Shown here: positions 1 to 64,000 of the stretch, one piece after another
How positions within the stretch are numbered: the stretch's first letter is position 1
Layout of the letters: every line of letters begins with the position of its first letter
Assembly: GCF_000411455.1 (NCBI RefSeq)
Contig: NZ_KE150457.1
Coordinates: 810,474-874,473 of the forward strand
DNA from: Microbacterium sp. oral taxon 186 str. F0373
GTDB taxonomy: Bacteria > Actinomycetota > Actinomycetes > Actinomycetales > Microbacteriaceae
Reading direction: 5' to 3'
Length of the DNA: 64,000 nucleotides
Position numbers and translations under genes: made by a program
The notes under the pieces: model-generated
The model's input: the letters and a program-made list of their open reading frames with translations, nothing else
The model's database searches: none
What the model was told of the DNA's origin: nothing

Positions 1-1027
1 ACTTGCTCAGCGCCGTGATCATGACGGTGCGGATGGGCACGTTGATGCCGACCCCGAGCGTGTCGGTGCCGCAGATCACCCGCAGCAGCCCGCGTTGGGC
101 GAGGGTCTCGACGAGTCGCCGATAGCGCGGCAGCATGCCCGCGTGGTGCACGCCGATGCCGGCCCGAACGAGCCGCGACAGCGTCTTGCCGAAACCCGTC
201 GTGAAGCGGAATCCGCCGATGGCGTCGGCGATCTCGTCGCGCTGGGCGCGTGTGGTGAGGGTGACGGATGCCAGGGCCTGCGCACGCTCGAGGGCCGCCG
301 CCTGTGCGAAGTGCACGATGTAGACCGGCACCTCACGCTCGTCGACGAGCATCGTCAGCACCTCGTGCACCGGCCGGCGCTCGTACGAGAAGTGCAGCGG
401 CACCGGCCGCTCGACGCCGGTGACGAGCGCCACGGGGCGCCCCGTGCGGCGCTCGAGGTCTTCGGCGATCGGCGTCACGTCGCCGAGGGTGGCCGACATC
501 AGCAGGAACTGCGCCTGCGGCAGCAGCAGGAGCGGCACCTGCCACGCCCATCCCCGGTCGGGGTCGCCGTAGTAGTGGAACTCGTCCATGACGACCTGAT
601 CGACCTGCGCATCCGCGCCGTGACGGAGGGCGATGTTGGCGAGGATCTCCGCGGTGCAGCAGACGATCGCGGCATCCGGGTTCACCGACGAGTCGCCGGT
701 GACCATGCCGACGTTCTCGGCGCCGAACACCTCGACCAGCGCGAAGAACTTCTCACTGACCAGCGCTTTGATCGGCGCGGTGTAGTACGAGCGGCCGCCC
801 GCGGCGAGGCAGGCCGCGTGAGCGGCGATCGCGACGAGCGACTTGCCGGTACCCGTCGGTGTCGACAGGATCACGTTGGCACCCGAGACCAGCTCGATGA
901 CGGCCTCGTCCTGCGCGGGGTACAGTGCCAGCCCACGGCCGGCGGCCCACGCGACGAAGCCCTCATACGCGGCATCCGCCGTCGCTCCGACGGGCACGAG
1001 GTCGGTCAGTGCCGCAGGCGAGGTCAT
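1..1027 (-). CDS. DEAD/DEAH (Ski2-like) helicase, 3' part missing
   Basis: An ATP-dependent RNA or DNA helicase, truncated by the window edge, with the N-terminal 342 residues visible. It starts at an ATG whose complement is at 1025-1027. The Walker A motif STPTGTGKS lies at residues 55-63, the DExH box is MDEFHYY near residue 150, and a motif III LMSATLGD follows. This is the DExH signature of the Ski2-like group, and the sequence closely resembles the actinobacterial helicases that carry a C-terminal DUF3516 domain; that domain would lie off the window. Substrate and partner are unknown. A CAGACT element six bases before the ATG suggests a leaderless transcript. Confidence 0.9.
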   Translation of the reverse strand, partial: MTSPAALTDLVPVGATADAAYEGFVAWAAGRGLALYPAQDEAVIELVSGANVILSTPTGTGKSLVAIAAHAACLAAGGRSYYTAPIKALVSEKFFALVEVFGAENVGMVTGDSSVNPDAAIVCCTAEILANIALRHGADAQVDQVVMDEFHYYGDPDRGWAWQVPLLLLPQAQFLLMSATLGDVTPIAEDLERRTGRPVALVTGVERPVPLHFSYERRPVHEVLTMLVDEREVPVYIVHFAQAAALERAQALASVTLTTRAQRDEIADAIGGFRFTTGFGKTLSRLVRAGIGVHHAGMLPRYRRLVETLAQRGLLRVICGTDTLGVGINVPIRTVMITALSK

Positions 1028-6254: not shown

Positions 6255-7072
6255 GCGCGGCGATCACCGATCCGTGGGCGACCGCCGGCCGCGAGAACGC
6301 ACGTGCGCTGGAGCGCATCAATCCCCTCGCGAAGCTTGCGGCGCCGCTGCCCGCGATGGTGCTGCTGGTGTTCACCCGCGATCTCGCCACCCCGCTCGCC
6401 TTCATCGCGATCGCGTACGTCGTCGTGCTCCTCGGTGCGCGACTGACCGCTCGGGTCATGCTGCTCTTGTTCGTCGCGCTCCCCGCGGCGGCCGTCGTCA
6501 TCGGAGCGTCGATGAGCCTCTGGACCGACCCCGCTCGCGTCGGAGGCACGGTGCTCGCGCACGTCGGCTCATGGACCTTGACCAGTGGAGCCCTGGCGGT
6601 CGGGTTCGCGACGGGGCTGCGGCTCGCCGCGATCGTCGCCCTCGCGCTGATCGCGGGGCTGACGACCACGGGCCCCGACCTCGTGCGGTCGAGCGTGCAG
6701 CAGCTGCGCGTGCCATACCGGGTCGGCTACACGGCGCTGGCGGCGTTCCGCTTCGTGCCGCGGTTCGGGCACGAGCTCGACGTGATCCGTCAGGCTCACC
6801 GGGTGCGCGGATCGCACGGCGGCCGGGGGCCTTTTGCCGCGATCGCCCGCTGGTGGGGCTACCTCGTGCCGCTCCTCGCCGGCGCGATCCGCCACGCCGA
6901 GCGCGTCGCTCTCGCGATGGATGCCCGCGCCTTCGGCGCCCACCCCGACCGCACCGAGCGCCACGGGGTGCCGTGGCGGACGCGCGACACCGTGTTCGTC
7001 GTCGCGTTCTGGCTGGTGAGCGCCGGCATCCTCCTCGCCCTCTTCCCCTGGGCTCCTCCGTCTGTCAGCTGA
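6251..7072 (+). CDS. ykoC: ECF transporter T component (YkoC/CbiQ-like transmembrane protein)
   Basis: The membrane scaffold (T) component coupling the YkoD ATPase to the S component; 273 aa with about five to six hydrophobic segments. The cytoplasmic coupling motif of T proteins is seen as AMDARAFGA near residue 222, and a FVPRFGHELDVIRQAHRVRG segment is typical of the family. The GTG start at 6251 overlaps the end of ykoD, which implies translational coupling. The 3' end overlaps the convergent GIY-YIG gene by eight bases. Confidence 0.88.
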   Translation: MSAAITDPWATAGRENARALERINPLAKLAAPLPAMVLLVFTRDLATPLAFIAIAYVVVLLGARLTARVMLLLFVALPAAAVVIGASMSLWTDPARVGGTVLAHVGSWTLTSGALAVGFATGLRLAAIVALALIAGLTTTGPDLVRSSVQQLRVPYRVGYTALAAFRFVPRFGHELDVIRQAHRVRGSHGGRGPFAAIARWWGYLVPLLAGAIRHAERVALAMDARAFGAHPDRTERHGVPWRTRDTVFVVAFWLVSAGILLALFPWAPPSVS

Positions 7073-58977: not shown

Positions 58978-59057
58978 TCCTTGACAAAGTAGACGTCGGC
59001 TCGCGATGCTGACCAGCGACGGAACCCAGTCAGGTTCCGCGCTGATCAAGGAGGATC

Positions 59058-61895
59058 GTGAAACGACATGTTCTCGCCGCGCTGGTGACAGCCGCGGCCG
59101 TGGCGGCGACCGCCGTCCTACCCGTGGCGGCGGCGCATGCCGCCGCCCTCACCTCCCCCGACTTCCTCAAAGCCAGCGGCAACGTCCTGAAGAAGTCGTC
59201 GGGGACCGGGGCCGCGGTGAACCTCCGCGGCACGAACATCGGCGGATGGCTCACCCAGGAGGATTGGATGTCGCCGCTGGGCGAGTTCGCCGCCGACCGC
59301 ACCGGCTGGACCGCGACGGCCTCGGCGGGGACCCCCGCAAACGCGTTGGACGGATCGGGCACGAGCCGATGGACGACCGGAGCGAACCAGGCCGGCGGCG
59401 AATGGATCCGCATCGACCTGGGGGCGCCCACCCTCTTCAACCGGCTCACGATCGACAACACGGCCAACGGCGGACAGTGGCCGCGGGCGCTCACCGTCGA
59501 GACCTCGGCGAACGGCTCGACGTGGACGAGCGTGGCGACGCAGCCCGGAGCGGACGGTCTCACGACGGTGAAGTTCAGCCCGCAGGTGGCGCGGTACGTG
59601 AGGGTCACGCAAACCGGCGCCGCCGCGGCGCCGTGGTCGGTCGGAGAGATCAACCTCTATAGTGACCCGGTGCTGTTCAACGGCACGCACACGGCCACCG
59701 CGACCTCCAGCGCCCCCGGCACGAACGCCCAGATGACGCTCGACGGCAACGTCTCCACCGTGTGGCAGAGCGGCGCCCCGCAGGCGCCCGGCCAGTCCCT
59801 GACGGTCGACCTGGGCCGCAACGTCGACATGGACAAGGTGCTGTTCGACGCCGGCGCGGCCACGGCGAACGACTATCCCCGGGTGTACGACGTTTTCACG
59901 TCGTACGACAACGCGAGCTGGACGAAGGTGGCAAGCGGGTACGGCGCGAACCGTGTGGTGCAGGCCGACTTCCAGGGATCCAAGAACGGTCGCTATCTGC
60001 GGATCACCTCGAACGGCACCTCGTCGCAGTGGTGGTCGGTCGCGGAGATCGCCATCTCGAGCGGGACTTCCGTCGACCGTGGCGGATGGGCCGTCACCTC
60101 CTCGGTGGGCACCTCCCCCGCGAACATGCTCGACGGAACGACCTCGACGCGGTGGAGCACCGGCACCGCGCAGGCACCGGGACAGTCGGTGACGGTGGAC
60201 ATGGGCGCCCTCATCACGCTCAACAACGTCACGACCGACACGGCCAAGAACACCACCGACGAGGACGACTGGCCGCGCGGCTACACACTCCAGCTGTCGC
60301 GCGACGGGTCGAGCTGGAGCACCGTGGCCACCGGCGCGGGAACCAAGAAGGCCTCGACGATCGGGTTCACGGCGCAGGCGGCGCGCTACTTCCGACTCAC
60401 CCAGACCGGCAGCGCGGGCAACTGGTGGTCGATCGGCGAGCTCACCGCCGGTCTCTACAACGACGACTACTCGCTGACCAACACGATGACCGCGCGCTTC
60501 GGCACCGCCACCACAGCCGCCGTCGTCGGCACGCACCAGGACACCTGGTTCACGGCGAACGACCTCGACACGATCCAGGCCACGGGGATGAACTTCATCC
60601 GCGTGCCGATCGGGTGGAACGTGTTCCTGAACCTCGACGGCACCTGGAAGTCGAACCCCTGGTCGAAGATCGACTGGGTCGTGAACGAGGCCGCAGCGCG
60701 CGGAATCTACGTCCTCATCGACCTGCACACGGTGCCGGGCGGCGGCTGCCCGTGGGGTTCATGCGGTCGCATCGGCCCGAATCCCAACGGGTTCTGGGGC
60801 AGCGCGACGTATCAGAACTGGGTCGAGGACATCTGGAAGAAGATCGCGACGCGCTACAACGGCAACCCCGCTGTCGCCGGCTACGACCTCATCAACGAGC
60901 CGCTGATCGACTACAACGAGGATAGCGACGACGTGGCGCAGAAGAGCGACTACTACAACCGGCTGTACACCGCGGTGCGCGCCATCGATGCGGATCACGC
61001 GATCTTCCTCGGCGCGTTCTTCGGACTGGACAAGCTGGCTGCGCCTTCGACTTACGGGTGGACGAACGTGGTCTACGAGTACCACCCGTACGACATGCCG
61101 AACTCGAAGGACTGGACGGCGCAGAACCAGCTCGTGACGAACGAGCTGGGCGGGCTGGCCGCGAAGCTGTCCAATCCCGGCGTGCCCATCCTCTACGGCG
61201 AGTACTCCCTGTATTACAACGATGACGTCTGGGCGCGGTTCATGGCGGGACTCAACGCCTCGCAGGTGTCGTGGTCGAGCTGGTCGTACAAGGTCAAGGG
61301 TTCCGCCGAGGACGGGTTCGCGTACTGGGGCATGTACTACGACGATCGCAAGCCGGTGCCGGTCATCAACAGTGATGACGCGGCGACCTTCCAGTCGAAG
61401 CTGTCGCAGTTCGGCACGGCCAACTTCACGCAGAACGCGCGCTTCGTCGCCACCATCGCGAAGTACGCCGGCGGCCTGTCGGCGTTCGCCCCGTCCGCGG
61501 TGAGCCACACCGGCTGGACCGCGACGGCATCCACCACCGCGGCGGGCAGCTCGCCGGCCGCGGGGATCGACGGTGCGAACGGCACATCGTGGAAGAGCGG
61601 GCAGGCCATGGCGGGCGGGGAGTGGTACCGCATCGACATGGGCGCCGCCCGCACCGTCGCGATGGTGACGGTACAGACCGACAGCTCGTCGACCTGGGAC
61701 TATCCCCGCGGGTTCACCGTGGAGACCTCCCTCGACGGCACGACGTGGTCGACGGCCGCGACGGGTATCGCCTATGGGTGGAAGCGGCCGATCTCGATCG
61801 CACCGGCGAGTGCGCGCTACATCCGGATCACGCAGACCGGTGTCGCGCCGCAGTGGTGGTCGATCGACGAGGTGACGGTCTACTCGTCCTACTGA
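59058..61895 (+). CDS. Secreted GH5 glycosidase with four discoidin (F5/8C) domains
   Basis: A 945-residue exported enzyme. After a signal peptide (ends AAHAA) the GH5 first strand reads VNLRGTNIGGWLTQEDWMS (about 51-70). Three discoidin/CBM32-like domains follow (about 80-200, 200-330, 335-470). The GH5 barrel then resumes with HQDTWFTANDLDTIQATGMN and FIRVPIGWNVF. The acid/base Glu is in YDLINEP (about 613) and the nucleophile in ILYGEYSLY (about 714). A fourth discoidin domain ends the protein (about 812-945). The pattern fits exo-beta-1,3-glucanase-type GH5 enzymes. AAGGAGG precedes GTG 59058. Confidence 0.9.
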   Translation: MKRHVLAALVTAAAVAATAVLPVAAAHAAALTSPDFLKASGNVLKKSSGTGAAVNLRGTNIGGWLTQEDWMSPLGEFAADRTGWTATASAGTPANALDGSGTSRWTTGANQAGGEWIRIDLGAPTLFNRLTIDNTANGGQWPRALTVETSANGSTWTSVATQPGADGLTTVKFSPQVARYVRVTQTGAAAAPWSVGEINLYSDPVLFNGTHTATATSSAPGTNAQMTLDGNVSTVWQSGAPQAPGQSLTVDLGRNVDMDKVLFDAGAATANDYPRVYDVFTSYDNASWTKVASGYGANRVVQADFQGSKNGRYLRITSNGTSSQWWSVAEIAISSGTSVDRGGWAVTSSVGTSPANMLDGTTSTRWSTGTAQAPGQSVTVDMGALITLNNVTTDTAKNTTDEDDWPRGYTLQLSRDGSSWSTVATGAGTKKASTIGFTAQAARYFRLTQTGSAGNWWSIGELTAGLYNDDYSLTNTMTARFGTATTAAVVGTHQDTWFTANDLDTIQATGMNFIRVPIGWNVFLNLDGTWKSNPWSKIDWVVNEAAARGIYVLIDLHTVPGGGCPWGSCGRIGPNPNGFWGSATYQNWVEDIWKKIATRYNGNPAVAGYDLINEPLIDYNEDSDDVAQKSDYYNRLYTAVRAIDADHAIFLGAFFGLDKLAAPSTYGWTNVVYEYHPYDMPNSKDWTAQNQLVTNELGGLAAKLSNPGVPILYGEYSLYYNDDVWARFMAGLNASQVSWSSWSYKVKGSAEDGFAYWGMYYDDRKPVPVINSDDAATFQSKLSQFGTANFTQNARFVATIAKYAGGLSAFAPSAVSHTGWTATASTTAAGSSPAAGIDGANGTSWKSGQAMAGGEWYRIDMGAARTVAMVTVQTDSSSTWDYPRGFTVETSLDGTTWSTAATGIAYGWKRPISIAPASARYIRITQTGVAPQWWSIDEVTVYSSY

Positions 61896-62084: not shown

Positions 62085-63332
62085 ATGAAGAGAATGCGCT
62101 GGATCGCTCTGGGCGTCACCGCCGTGACCGCAGCCACCCTCGCCGGATGCTCGTCATCCGCACCCGGCGACAGCGGCACCGCCCCGAAGGAACTGACCGT
62201 CTGGGTCATGGGCGACAGCTCGGCCCACTTCGATGCGCTGGTCAAGCCGTTCGAAGACAAGACGGGGATCGACGTGAAGACCGTCGCCATCCCCTGGGAC
62301 AGCGTCGACCAGAAGTTCACGACGGCCGTCGCCTCCGGCGGCGGCCCCGATGTGCTGCAGATCGGACTCTCCAAGCTGCGCACGTACGCCGACAGCGGCG
62401 CGCTGCTCACGCTCGACGACGCCGCGCTCTCCGGTCATGAGAACCTCGCGGCATCCAACTTCGTCGACGGCGTCGCCGGCGATGCGACAGCCATCGGCGG
62501 CAAGGTCGTCTCCGTGCCGTGGGTGTCGGACACACGCGTTCTCTTCTACCGCAGCGACATCCTCCAGGCAGCGGGTATCAGCTCTCCGCCCGCGACCTGG
62601 GATCAGCTGCGCGCCGACGCGAAGACCCTCGCGGGGCGCGGCAACGGCTCGTACGGCTACTACATCCCCCAGTGGGACAGCGCGCTTCCTGTCATCATGA
62701 CGTGGGACCAGGGCGGCGACATCGTCGACAGCCAGGGCAAGATCGACTTCGACACCCCCGCGTTCGGCAAGGCCGTCGACCTGTACACCGGGCTCTACGC
62801 CGACAAGAGCGTGCCGACGAACAGCGACTTCGACCAGACGCAGGGCTTCATCACGGGAAGCACGCCCATGCTCGTCAGCGGCCCCTACCTCGCAGCCGCC
62901 ATCTCGCAGTCGGCACCGGAGCTGGCCGGCAAGTGGAACGTGACCACCGTTCCGTCGGGAGCTAAGGACACCTCGCTGCTCGCGGGTTCGAACCTGGGCA
63001 TCTGGGGCTCGACCAAGAACAAGGAGGGCGCTCTCCAGCTACTGGATTACCTGTCGCAGCCCGATGTGCAGGTGAGCTGGTACCAGTCCGACGGTCAGCT
63101 TCCCACCGTGAAGAAGGCGCTCACCGACACCACGCTCACCGGTGACCCCATGGTGTCGGTCTACACGAAGCAGCTCGCGTCCTCCCGCCTGCTGCCGCTC
63201 GTACCGAACTGGGACGGCGAGACGGGGAAGGCGCTGCTCGACTCGCTGAACTCGATTGTGCTCACCGGTGCGAACCGCGAGGACGCACTGAAGACGCTGT
63301 TCACGACCACCGCCGGGACCCCCGCGAACTGA
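62085..63332 (+). CDS. Sugar ABC transporter substrate-binding lipoprotein
   Basis: An extracellular binding protein of the carbohydrate family 1 type (415 aa). Signal peptide and lipobox LAGC precede LTVWVMGDSSAHFDALVKPF; FTTAVASGGGPDVLQIGLSK and the WVSDTRVLFYRSDILQAAGI region are typical. The ligand is probably an oligosaccharide released by the GH5 enzyme encoded just upstream. CGAAAGGA precedes the ATG. Confidence 0.93.
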   Translation: MKRMRWIALGVTAVTAATLAGCSSSAPGDSGTAPKELTVWVMGDSSAHFDALVKPFEDKTGIDVKTVAIPWDSVDQKFTTAVASGGGPDVLQIGLSKLRTYADSGALLTLDDAALSGHENLAASNFVDGVAGDATAIGGKVVSVPWVSDTRVLFYRSDILQAAGISSPPATWDQLRADAKTLAGRGNGSYGYYIPQWDSALPVIMTWDQGGDIVDSQGKIDFDTPAFGKAVDLYTGLYADKSVPTNSDFDQTQGFITGSTPMLVSGPYLAAAISQSAPELAGKWNVTTVPSGAKDTSLLAGSNLGIWGSTKNKEGALQLLDYLSQPDVQVSWYQSDGQLPTVKKALTDTTLTGDPMVSVYTKQLASSRLLPLVPNWDGETGKALLDSLNSIVLTGANREDALKTLFTTTAGTPAN

Positions 63333-63335
63333 GCT

Positions 63336-63374
63336 CCGGGGGTGCGTGGTGACCCGATCACCGCGCACCCCCGG
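63336..63374 (+). terminator. Stem-loop between binding-protein and permease genes
   Basis: CCGGGGGTGCGTGGTG (63336-63351) and CACCGCGCACCCCCGG (63359-63374) pair at 15 of 16 positions with a 7-base loop. Placed right after the binding-protein stop, it may stabilise or partly terminate the message so that binding protein exceeds permease. Confidence 0.7.
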
Positions 63375-63384
63375 CCCTGAGGCC

Positions 63385-64000
63385 ATGAAGAACCGCATCG
63401 TCCCCTATACGTTCATCGCTCCAGCGATGCTCCTGCTCATCGTCTTCGGCATCCTGCCGATCGCCGTGGCGCTCCTCGTGAGCTTCACCGACATGAACCT
63501 CGCGGGCCTGGGCAACTGGTCGCGCATTCACTTCATCGGCGCCGACAACTACACGGCGCTGTTCGCGGACCCTGACTTCTGGCAGGCACTCGGAAACACG
63601 GCGCTGTTCGCGGTCGTCGGCGTGCCCAGCGTGATCGTCCTCTCACTGGCGATCGCGCTCGCGCTCAACAGGTCGCAGGGCCGCTTCTTCCGCGCACTGC
63701 GCTCGTTCTATTTCGTCCCGGCCATCACCGCCATCGTCGCCGTGGCCCTCGTCTGGGGCTACCTCTACAACACGCAGTTCGGCCTGTTCAACTACCTGCT
63801 CTCGCTCGTCGGGCTGCCGCCGGTTCCCTGGCTCTCCGACCCCACGGTGGTGAAGTTCTCCGTCGGGCTCGTCGCCGTCTGGCGCGGCCTGGGGCTGAAC
63901 GTGATCATCTTCCTCGCCGCGTTGCAGGGCGTGCCGAAGGAGTACCTGGAGGCGGCGGCGATCGACGGCGCGTCCGGGCTGCGACGGATCTTCTCGATCA
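63385..64000 (+). CDS. Sugar ABC transporter permease, 3' end missing
   Basis: The first permease (MalF/UgpA-like) of the sugar importer, 205 residues visible. Helix 1 is YTFIAPAMLLLIVFGILPIA, ALFADPDFWQALGNTALFAV follows, and the ATPase-contact EAA loop begins KEYLEAAAIDGASGLRRIFS at the window edge. ATG 63385 is chosen because the stem-loop at 63336-63374 occupies the space before it; GTG 63349 is an in-frame alternative. A second permease gene is expected beyond the window. Confidence 0.9.
   Translation, partial: MKNRIVPYTFIAPAMLLLIVFGILPIAVALLVSFTDMNLAGLGNWSRIHFIGADNYTALFADPDFWQALGNTALFAVVGVPSVIVLSLAIALALNRSQGRFFRALRSFYFVPAITAIVAVALVWGYLYNTQFGLFNYLLSLVGLPPVPWLSDPTVVKFSVGLVAVWRGLGLNVIIFLAALQGVPKEYLEAAAIDGASGLRRIFSI

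Follow-up and report, generated by a model that had tools for sequence, protein, structure and literature searches.

The 64,000-nucleotide window of Microbacterium sp. oral taxon 186 str. F0373, that is, the whole stretch of DNA analysed, encodes what we read, with a probability of about 0.72, as a secreted GH5 β-glycosidase whose barrel strand 1 lies at the N-terminus, followed by three discoidin domains (D1 to D3) in the β-1/α-1 loop on the catalytic face and then by strands 2 to 8. This reading is supported computationally by the split barrel, the insertion at a single point, the invariant active-site residues, the conserved position of the insertion, and the presence of two or three inserts among relatives.

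The gene (59058 to 61895, forward strand, from ORF, Pfam, alignment and model) codes for 945 amino acids and starts with a GTG codon preceded by AAGGAGG at 59048 to 59054. Residues ~1-30 (59058 to 59147) form a probable signal peptide, judged by eye from a hydrophobic segment ending AHA/A, and none of its 30 columns is invariant in 16 aligned sequences. The N-terminal barrel piece (residues 31-79, 59148 to 59294), delimited by alignments, profile and model, carries strand β-1 (57-60) and Glu68. It is followed by D1 (residues 80-203, 59295 to 59666), D2 (204-336, 59667 to 60065), and D3 (337-466, 60066 to 60455), all recognized from Pfam and relatives, with D2 also defined by a domain tree. The second barrel piece (residues 467-812, 60456 to 61493; Pfam, profile, model and VIA) comprises α-1, strands 2 to 8 and a linker, and a fourth discoidin, D4 (813-945, 61494 to 61892; Pfam and relatives), closes the protein. 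The four F5_F8_type_C stretches (PF00754) found by Pfam are placed as the first-pass annotation had described them, three between strand 1 and the rest of the barrel and one at the C-terminus. Its distance of about 400 residues to the next barrel element needs adjusting: VNLRG (residue 54) and HQDTW (residue 493) lie about 440 residues apart, and the insert accounts for about 389 of these (roughly 80-468). Assignment of these domains to the CBM32/discoidin family is based on the PF00754 matches and a mostly-β pattern in the predicted model. The Cellulase match (PF00150) is confined to residues 498-744, with 112.9 bits against a cut-off of 23.5, and begins at profile position 22 of 272. No fascin family is present among the five Pfam matches of the protein at E<=1, the insert being of the F5_F8_type_C type, and NCBIfam has no model naming the split enzyme, one of its discoidin domain models being matched. 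The GH5 (clan GH-A) assignment combines the Pfam score, eight active-site residues and a predicted (β/α)8 barrel from models and VIA.

The split of the GH5 barrel by a one-point insertion is confirmed at the sequence level. The solved GH5 proteins 9ku5, 8z2w, and Xog1 (1eqp) match residues ~37-74 and ~453-680, the first stretches being weak taken singly (7.6, 7.4, and 2.3 bits, respectively); the fourth aligned solved-structure match is a discoidin. From the loci we took 28 further GH5 ORFs; 21 of them match a strict motif and were aligned into a profile of uninterrupted GH5. On the protein, profile positions 9-40 correspond to residues 49-79 (14.1 bits) and positions 40-303 to residues 469-745 (143.1 bits). 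The two pieces are consecutive in the profile, and therefore about 389 residues have been inserted at one point. The remaining seven ORFs lack the strict motif; the profile matches each of them without a break, so that these also look uninterrupted. Moreover, a 45-position N-terminal profile of the uninterrupted relatives scores 21.8 bits on residues 49-78, against a maximum of 8.0 in 2000 shuffles of the protein, which rules out a chance occurrence of the motif. Together with the one-point insertion and a predicted strand at 57-60, this bears out the proposal that the N-terminal segment is strand 1 of a GH5 barrel.

An AlphaFold model of the 945-aa protein (P0001) was built from 16 sequences, all members of the split family, and has a mean pLDDT of 77.9 and a pTM of 0.70 (the five models span 65.8-77.9 in mean pLDDT). 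It shows strand 1 at 57-60, three β-sandwiches, and then seven more strands alternating with helices (513-519, 551-558, 606-610, 648-653, 671-675, 709-712, and 739-740), the last consisting of two residues only in the DSSP assignment. Barrel confidence is moderate in places, with residues 564-575 and 751-756 below 50. The model of a relative with two inserts (L017; pLDDT 77.3, pTM 0.73), not fully independent of the former as the two alignments share most sequences, has strand 1 at 40-43 and seven strands across 367-596, strand 8 covering 592-596. VIA aligned P0001 to 9ku5_A with Z 31.5 and rmsd 3.7 over 365 residues (span 30..804); residues 467-804 number 338, and the match therefore draws on residues before the second barrel piece. 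The L017 model aligns to 9ku5_A with Z 29.5 and rmsd 3.4 over 355 residues (span 13..658), and Xog1 entries reach a Z of about 27 with both models. Foldseek was run on the whole chain, and its list mixes discoidin and GH5 matches. The predicted structures support the placement of strands 2 to 8 after the insert, of strand 1 before it, and of three discoidin domains in the β-1/α-1 loop.

Eight residues (R515, H557, N613, E614, H676, Y678, E715, and W742) are invariant in 16 of 16 aligned sequences and were mapped onto the GH5 active-site residues listed for Xog1 (PMC10304600) through solved-structure and profile alignments. E715 and W742 were paired by profile alignment only, because the Xog1 sequence alignment stops before them. 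Both catalytic glutamates are thus in place, as had been noted from the sequence: Glu614 in NEP (60897 to 60899, from alignment) as acid/base and Glu715 in GEY (61200 to 61202, from profile alignment) as nucleophile, roles assigned by homology to Xog1 Glu192 and Glu292. Glu68, also invariant in 16/16, is aligned to residue 21 of the 1eqp chain; with a chain start at 7, as in the numbering of the VIA match, this residue would be Glu27. Glu27 is named in the glucose-binding site of Candida Xog1 (PMC10304600), and by this pairing Glu68 would be its glucose-contacting counterpart, so that the N-terminal piece, which brings Glu68, would belong to the active site. D1 starts about 12 residues past Glu68, and from topology the inserted domains should therefore begin at the active-site rim. 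The earlier suggestion of sugar-binding surfaces around the active site agrees with this predicted topology of putative binding domains.

Conservation was compared over the same 16 sequences. Of the regions tested, residues 55-79 show the highest conservation (20/25 columns invariant), the values elsewhere being 6/24 in residues 31-54, 121/340 in the second barrel piece, 22/124 in D1, 18/130 in D3, and 17/133 in D4, this last figure being lowered by L014, which ends within D4. D2 has 0/133 because L017 is without it; 42/133 columns are invariant when L017 and L018 are left aside. In addition, a CPWxSC motif is found in the loop after β-3 (residues 564-569, 60747 to 60764), with Cys564 and Cys569 invariant in 16/16; a disulfide between them at this active-site loop, in a low-confidence stretch of the model, is possible.

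The family comprises 24 distinct members: the window's own, 19 from a peptide-pattern search, L025 from a family search, and L041-L043 from a class search, L022 (the window's own) and L023 and L024 (apparent repeats of L016 and L008) being set aside. Three discoidins are inserted in 20 members and two in L017 and L025; L020, where the barrel is absent in frame, and L021, ended by a contig end, could not be scored. The profile reports the N-terminal barrel piece in 20/24 members, that is in all save L018, L019, L020, and L021, the motif being nonetheless visible by eye in L018, L019, and L020. The single-ORF split layout is present in Microbacterium, Agromyces, Homoserinibacter, Actinotalea, Rathayibacter, Leifsonia, and Pseudolysinimonas (63-97% identical), and the closest named relatives are Microbacterium hominis and an uncultured Microbacterium (97% identity each). 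With the window's own genome, which has one copy, always included, the gene was found in 4/249 genomes of the same family at orthologue level (13 more have only a distant GH5, E<=1e-20), in 4/394 genomes of the class at E<=1e-60, and in 1/396 genomes of the phylum at E<=1e-40. Beyond the phylum, short exact peptide patterns of the protein found one MAG labelled Bacillota (L019). Only 3 of the 31 GH5 places in 60 family genomes have the split architecture, and in the 30 loci fetched from these places the discoidin profile matched none of the further ORFs of 150 residues or more. When the family was searched with the second barrel piece, E fell from 5.1e-178 to 1.3e-27, with no uninserted relative bearing the same barrel among those genomes.

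Some members are damaged or divergent. In L019, a stop at 6580-6582 breaks the gene within the first discoidin, leaving two pieces in order, and in Nonomuraea cypriaca (L020:5920-7248) a single 443-aa frame carries the N-terminal motif and discoidins without the barrel, which suggests either an in-frame deletion between two discoidins of similar sequence or an error of assembly. L018 (3-3602) and L019 (6583-9630) have three C-terminal discoidins instead of one, and module number therefore varies both in the loop and at the end of the protein; among the three inserted domains of L018, two are partial matches. One GH5 close to the uninterrupted relatives (L073, G009:C1:2794945-2795514) has a TGA inside the match and lies in two frames, probably because the copy is broken or the sequence contains an error. 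We also built a tree of 88 discoidin domains, after dropping near-identical loci and fragments below ~85 residues; it is based on few columns. Domains group by position into four sets, save several L018 and L019 domains that fall outside. In L017 and L025, the second of the two inserts clusters with D3, and therefore D2 is the domain missing from these two.

Downstream of the split GH5 lie a solute-binding protein of an ABC transporter (SBP_bac_1, 62085 to 63332, forward strand), with a homologue in 14/19 loci, and after it an ABC permease (63346 to 63999, forward strand) that continues past the window end. Just beyond, an uninterrupted GH5 of ~480 aa without discoidins is present (L002, G000:C1:875819-876364), with no signal peptide by eye and no NCBIfam model above cut-off; a third GH5 of this genome lies at C1:127676. 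Across the 19 loci, several of which end at contig ends, an uninterrupted GH5 also occurs in 14, and both neighbours in 13. The divergent L019 has the order SBP, permease, unlabelled ORF, GH5, split GH5, GH3. Such a neighbourhood agrees with a cutter acting outside the cell, an importer, and a finisher inside.

The split GH5 would probably be secreted and is expected to follow the retaining two-step mechanism of the family, a double displacement (PMC3526467). By structure matches, its predicted barrel fold is nearest to a GH5_22 exo-β-xylosidase and to GH5_9 exo-β-1,3-glucanases: the nearest PDB sequence and VIA match of the barrel is the GH5_22 structure, and Xog1 (GH5_9) has the fold and active-site residues in common with it. 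The three CBM32-type discoidins, threaded into the β-1/α-1 loop on the predicted catalytic face, may bind the polysaccharide cut by the barrel and hold the polymer at the active-site rim. Uptake of the freed sugars could then go through the ABC transporter next to the gene, and the uninterrupted GH5 nearby could complete their breakdown.

Other explanations of the architecture were considered. The barrel might be complete after the insert, the N-terminal motif being a leftover or a separate small fold; the Cellulase match starting late in its profile and the very short strand 8 of P0001, for which the strand count rests partly on L017, speak in this direction. However, in both AlphaFold models strand 1 precedes the insert and seven strand-helix units follow it, the uninterrupted-GH5 profile continues over the gap at one position, and the strongest conservation of the protein falls on the very piece that would be dispensable. 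A barrel complete within residues ~472-810 with a free N-terminal segment, the outcome that would have undone the split, did not appear in either model, and we regard this explanation as very improbable and rejected by the models. An assembly or gene-fusion artefact may be suggested by the broken L019 and the barrel-less L020, but is contradicted by the single split ORFs in seven named genera, which leaves it next to no likelihood.

A more serious competitor, which we hold to be possible if unlikely, is that D1-D3 are spacers or stability modules that bind no sugar. The two ends of a discoidin domain are close together, so that a variable number would be tolerated in the loop, and F5/8C-type domains elsewhere may bind lipid or protein. 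The occurrence of two or three inserts among relatives and their lower conservation compared with the barrel are in line with this. On the other hand, in most members the three inserted positions keep separate identities in the discoidin tree, and the best solved-structure matches of a four-domain discoidin profile are AlyQ and galactose oxidases, which on sequence grounds points to the kinship of D1-D4 rather than to binding. The GH10 precedent is double-edged: removal of the CBMs left the xylan-degrading profile almost unchanged, so that inserted domains may act apart from catalysis, whereas most of the affinity for soluble substrates came from the CBMs, which also appear to help on insoluble ones (PMC7848910).

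The arrangement itself is known from plant and gut-bacterial enzymes. In plant GH5_14 (rice GH5BG, cotton GhGH5BG), the barrel is likewise interrupted after β-strand 1, by a fascin-like module (PMC3526467); in the AlphaFold model of GhGH5BG, GH5 residues 25-53 and 194-495 flank a module at 64-176 (PMC10858996). In contrast to the two or three discoidins described here, GH5_14 carries one β-trefoil fascin-like module, and its members in PMC3526467 are from plants only. GH10 Xyn10C-like xylanases such as Pm25 harbor tandem CBMs in one barrel loop, one to three among homologues (PMC7848910), and thus resemble the split GH5 in having binding modules in tandem and in varying number within one TIM-barrel loop. 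They differ in being GH10 enzymes with CBM4, CBM22 or unclassified modules inserted between β-3 and α-3, and in sitting in Bacteroidetes xylan loci, whereas the split GH5 lies in an ABC-transporter cluster. The SusG α-amylase also has a CBM inserted in its catalytic domain (PMC7848910), but is a GH13 with a single CBM58 in domain B. The best PDB sequence and VIA barrel match, the GH5_22 exo-β-xylosidase of Geobacillus thermodenitrificans OS27 (9ku5/9kua), is contiguous, with nothing between the two matched stretches, and is 24% identical over the structural alignment. Candida albicans Xog1 (GH5_9, 3N9K) has in common the eight active-site residues, the Glu27/Glu68 pair and a Z of about 27, but is fungal, uninterrupted, and about 19% identical over the structural alignment. 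Our search of open-licence papers found no GH5 that carries discoidins in tandem, two or three of them, at the β-1/α-1 site.

With the split GH5, the TIM-barrel glycosidases that have binding domains inside the catalytic domain gain a bacterial example in which two or three modules lie in tandem, and the loop used is the same as in plant GH5_14. It is also a trap for annotation: the Pfam match covers only the second barrel piece, and a construct truncated at the Pfam bounds would lose an active-site Glu together with strand 1. The relatives found in nature, with two or three inserts, represent ready constructs to ask if modules at the active-site rim alter catalysis. More speculatively, the β-1/α-1 loop could be a socket for stackable binding domains in what would be an undescribed GH5 lineage, the two or three discoidins forming a collar at the entrance of the active site and feeding the chain in or restricting it, with plant GH5_14 using the same socket, perhaps independently. 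If this tentative idea were true, substrate range would be set by swapping loop modules and not by altering the barrel.
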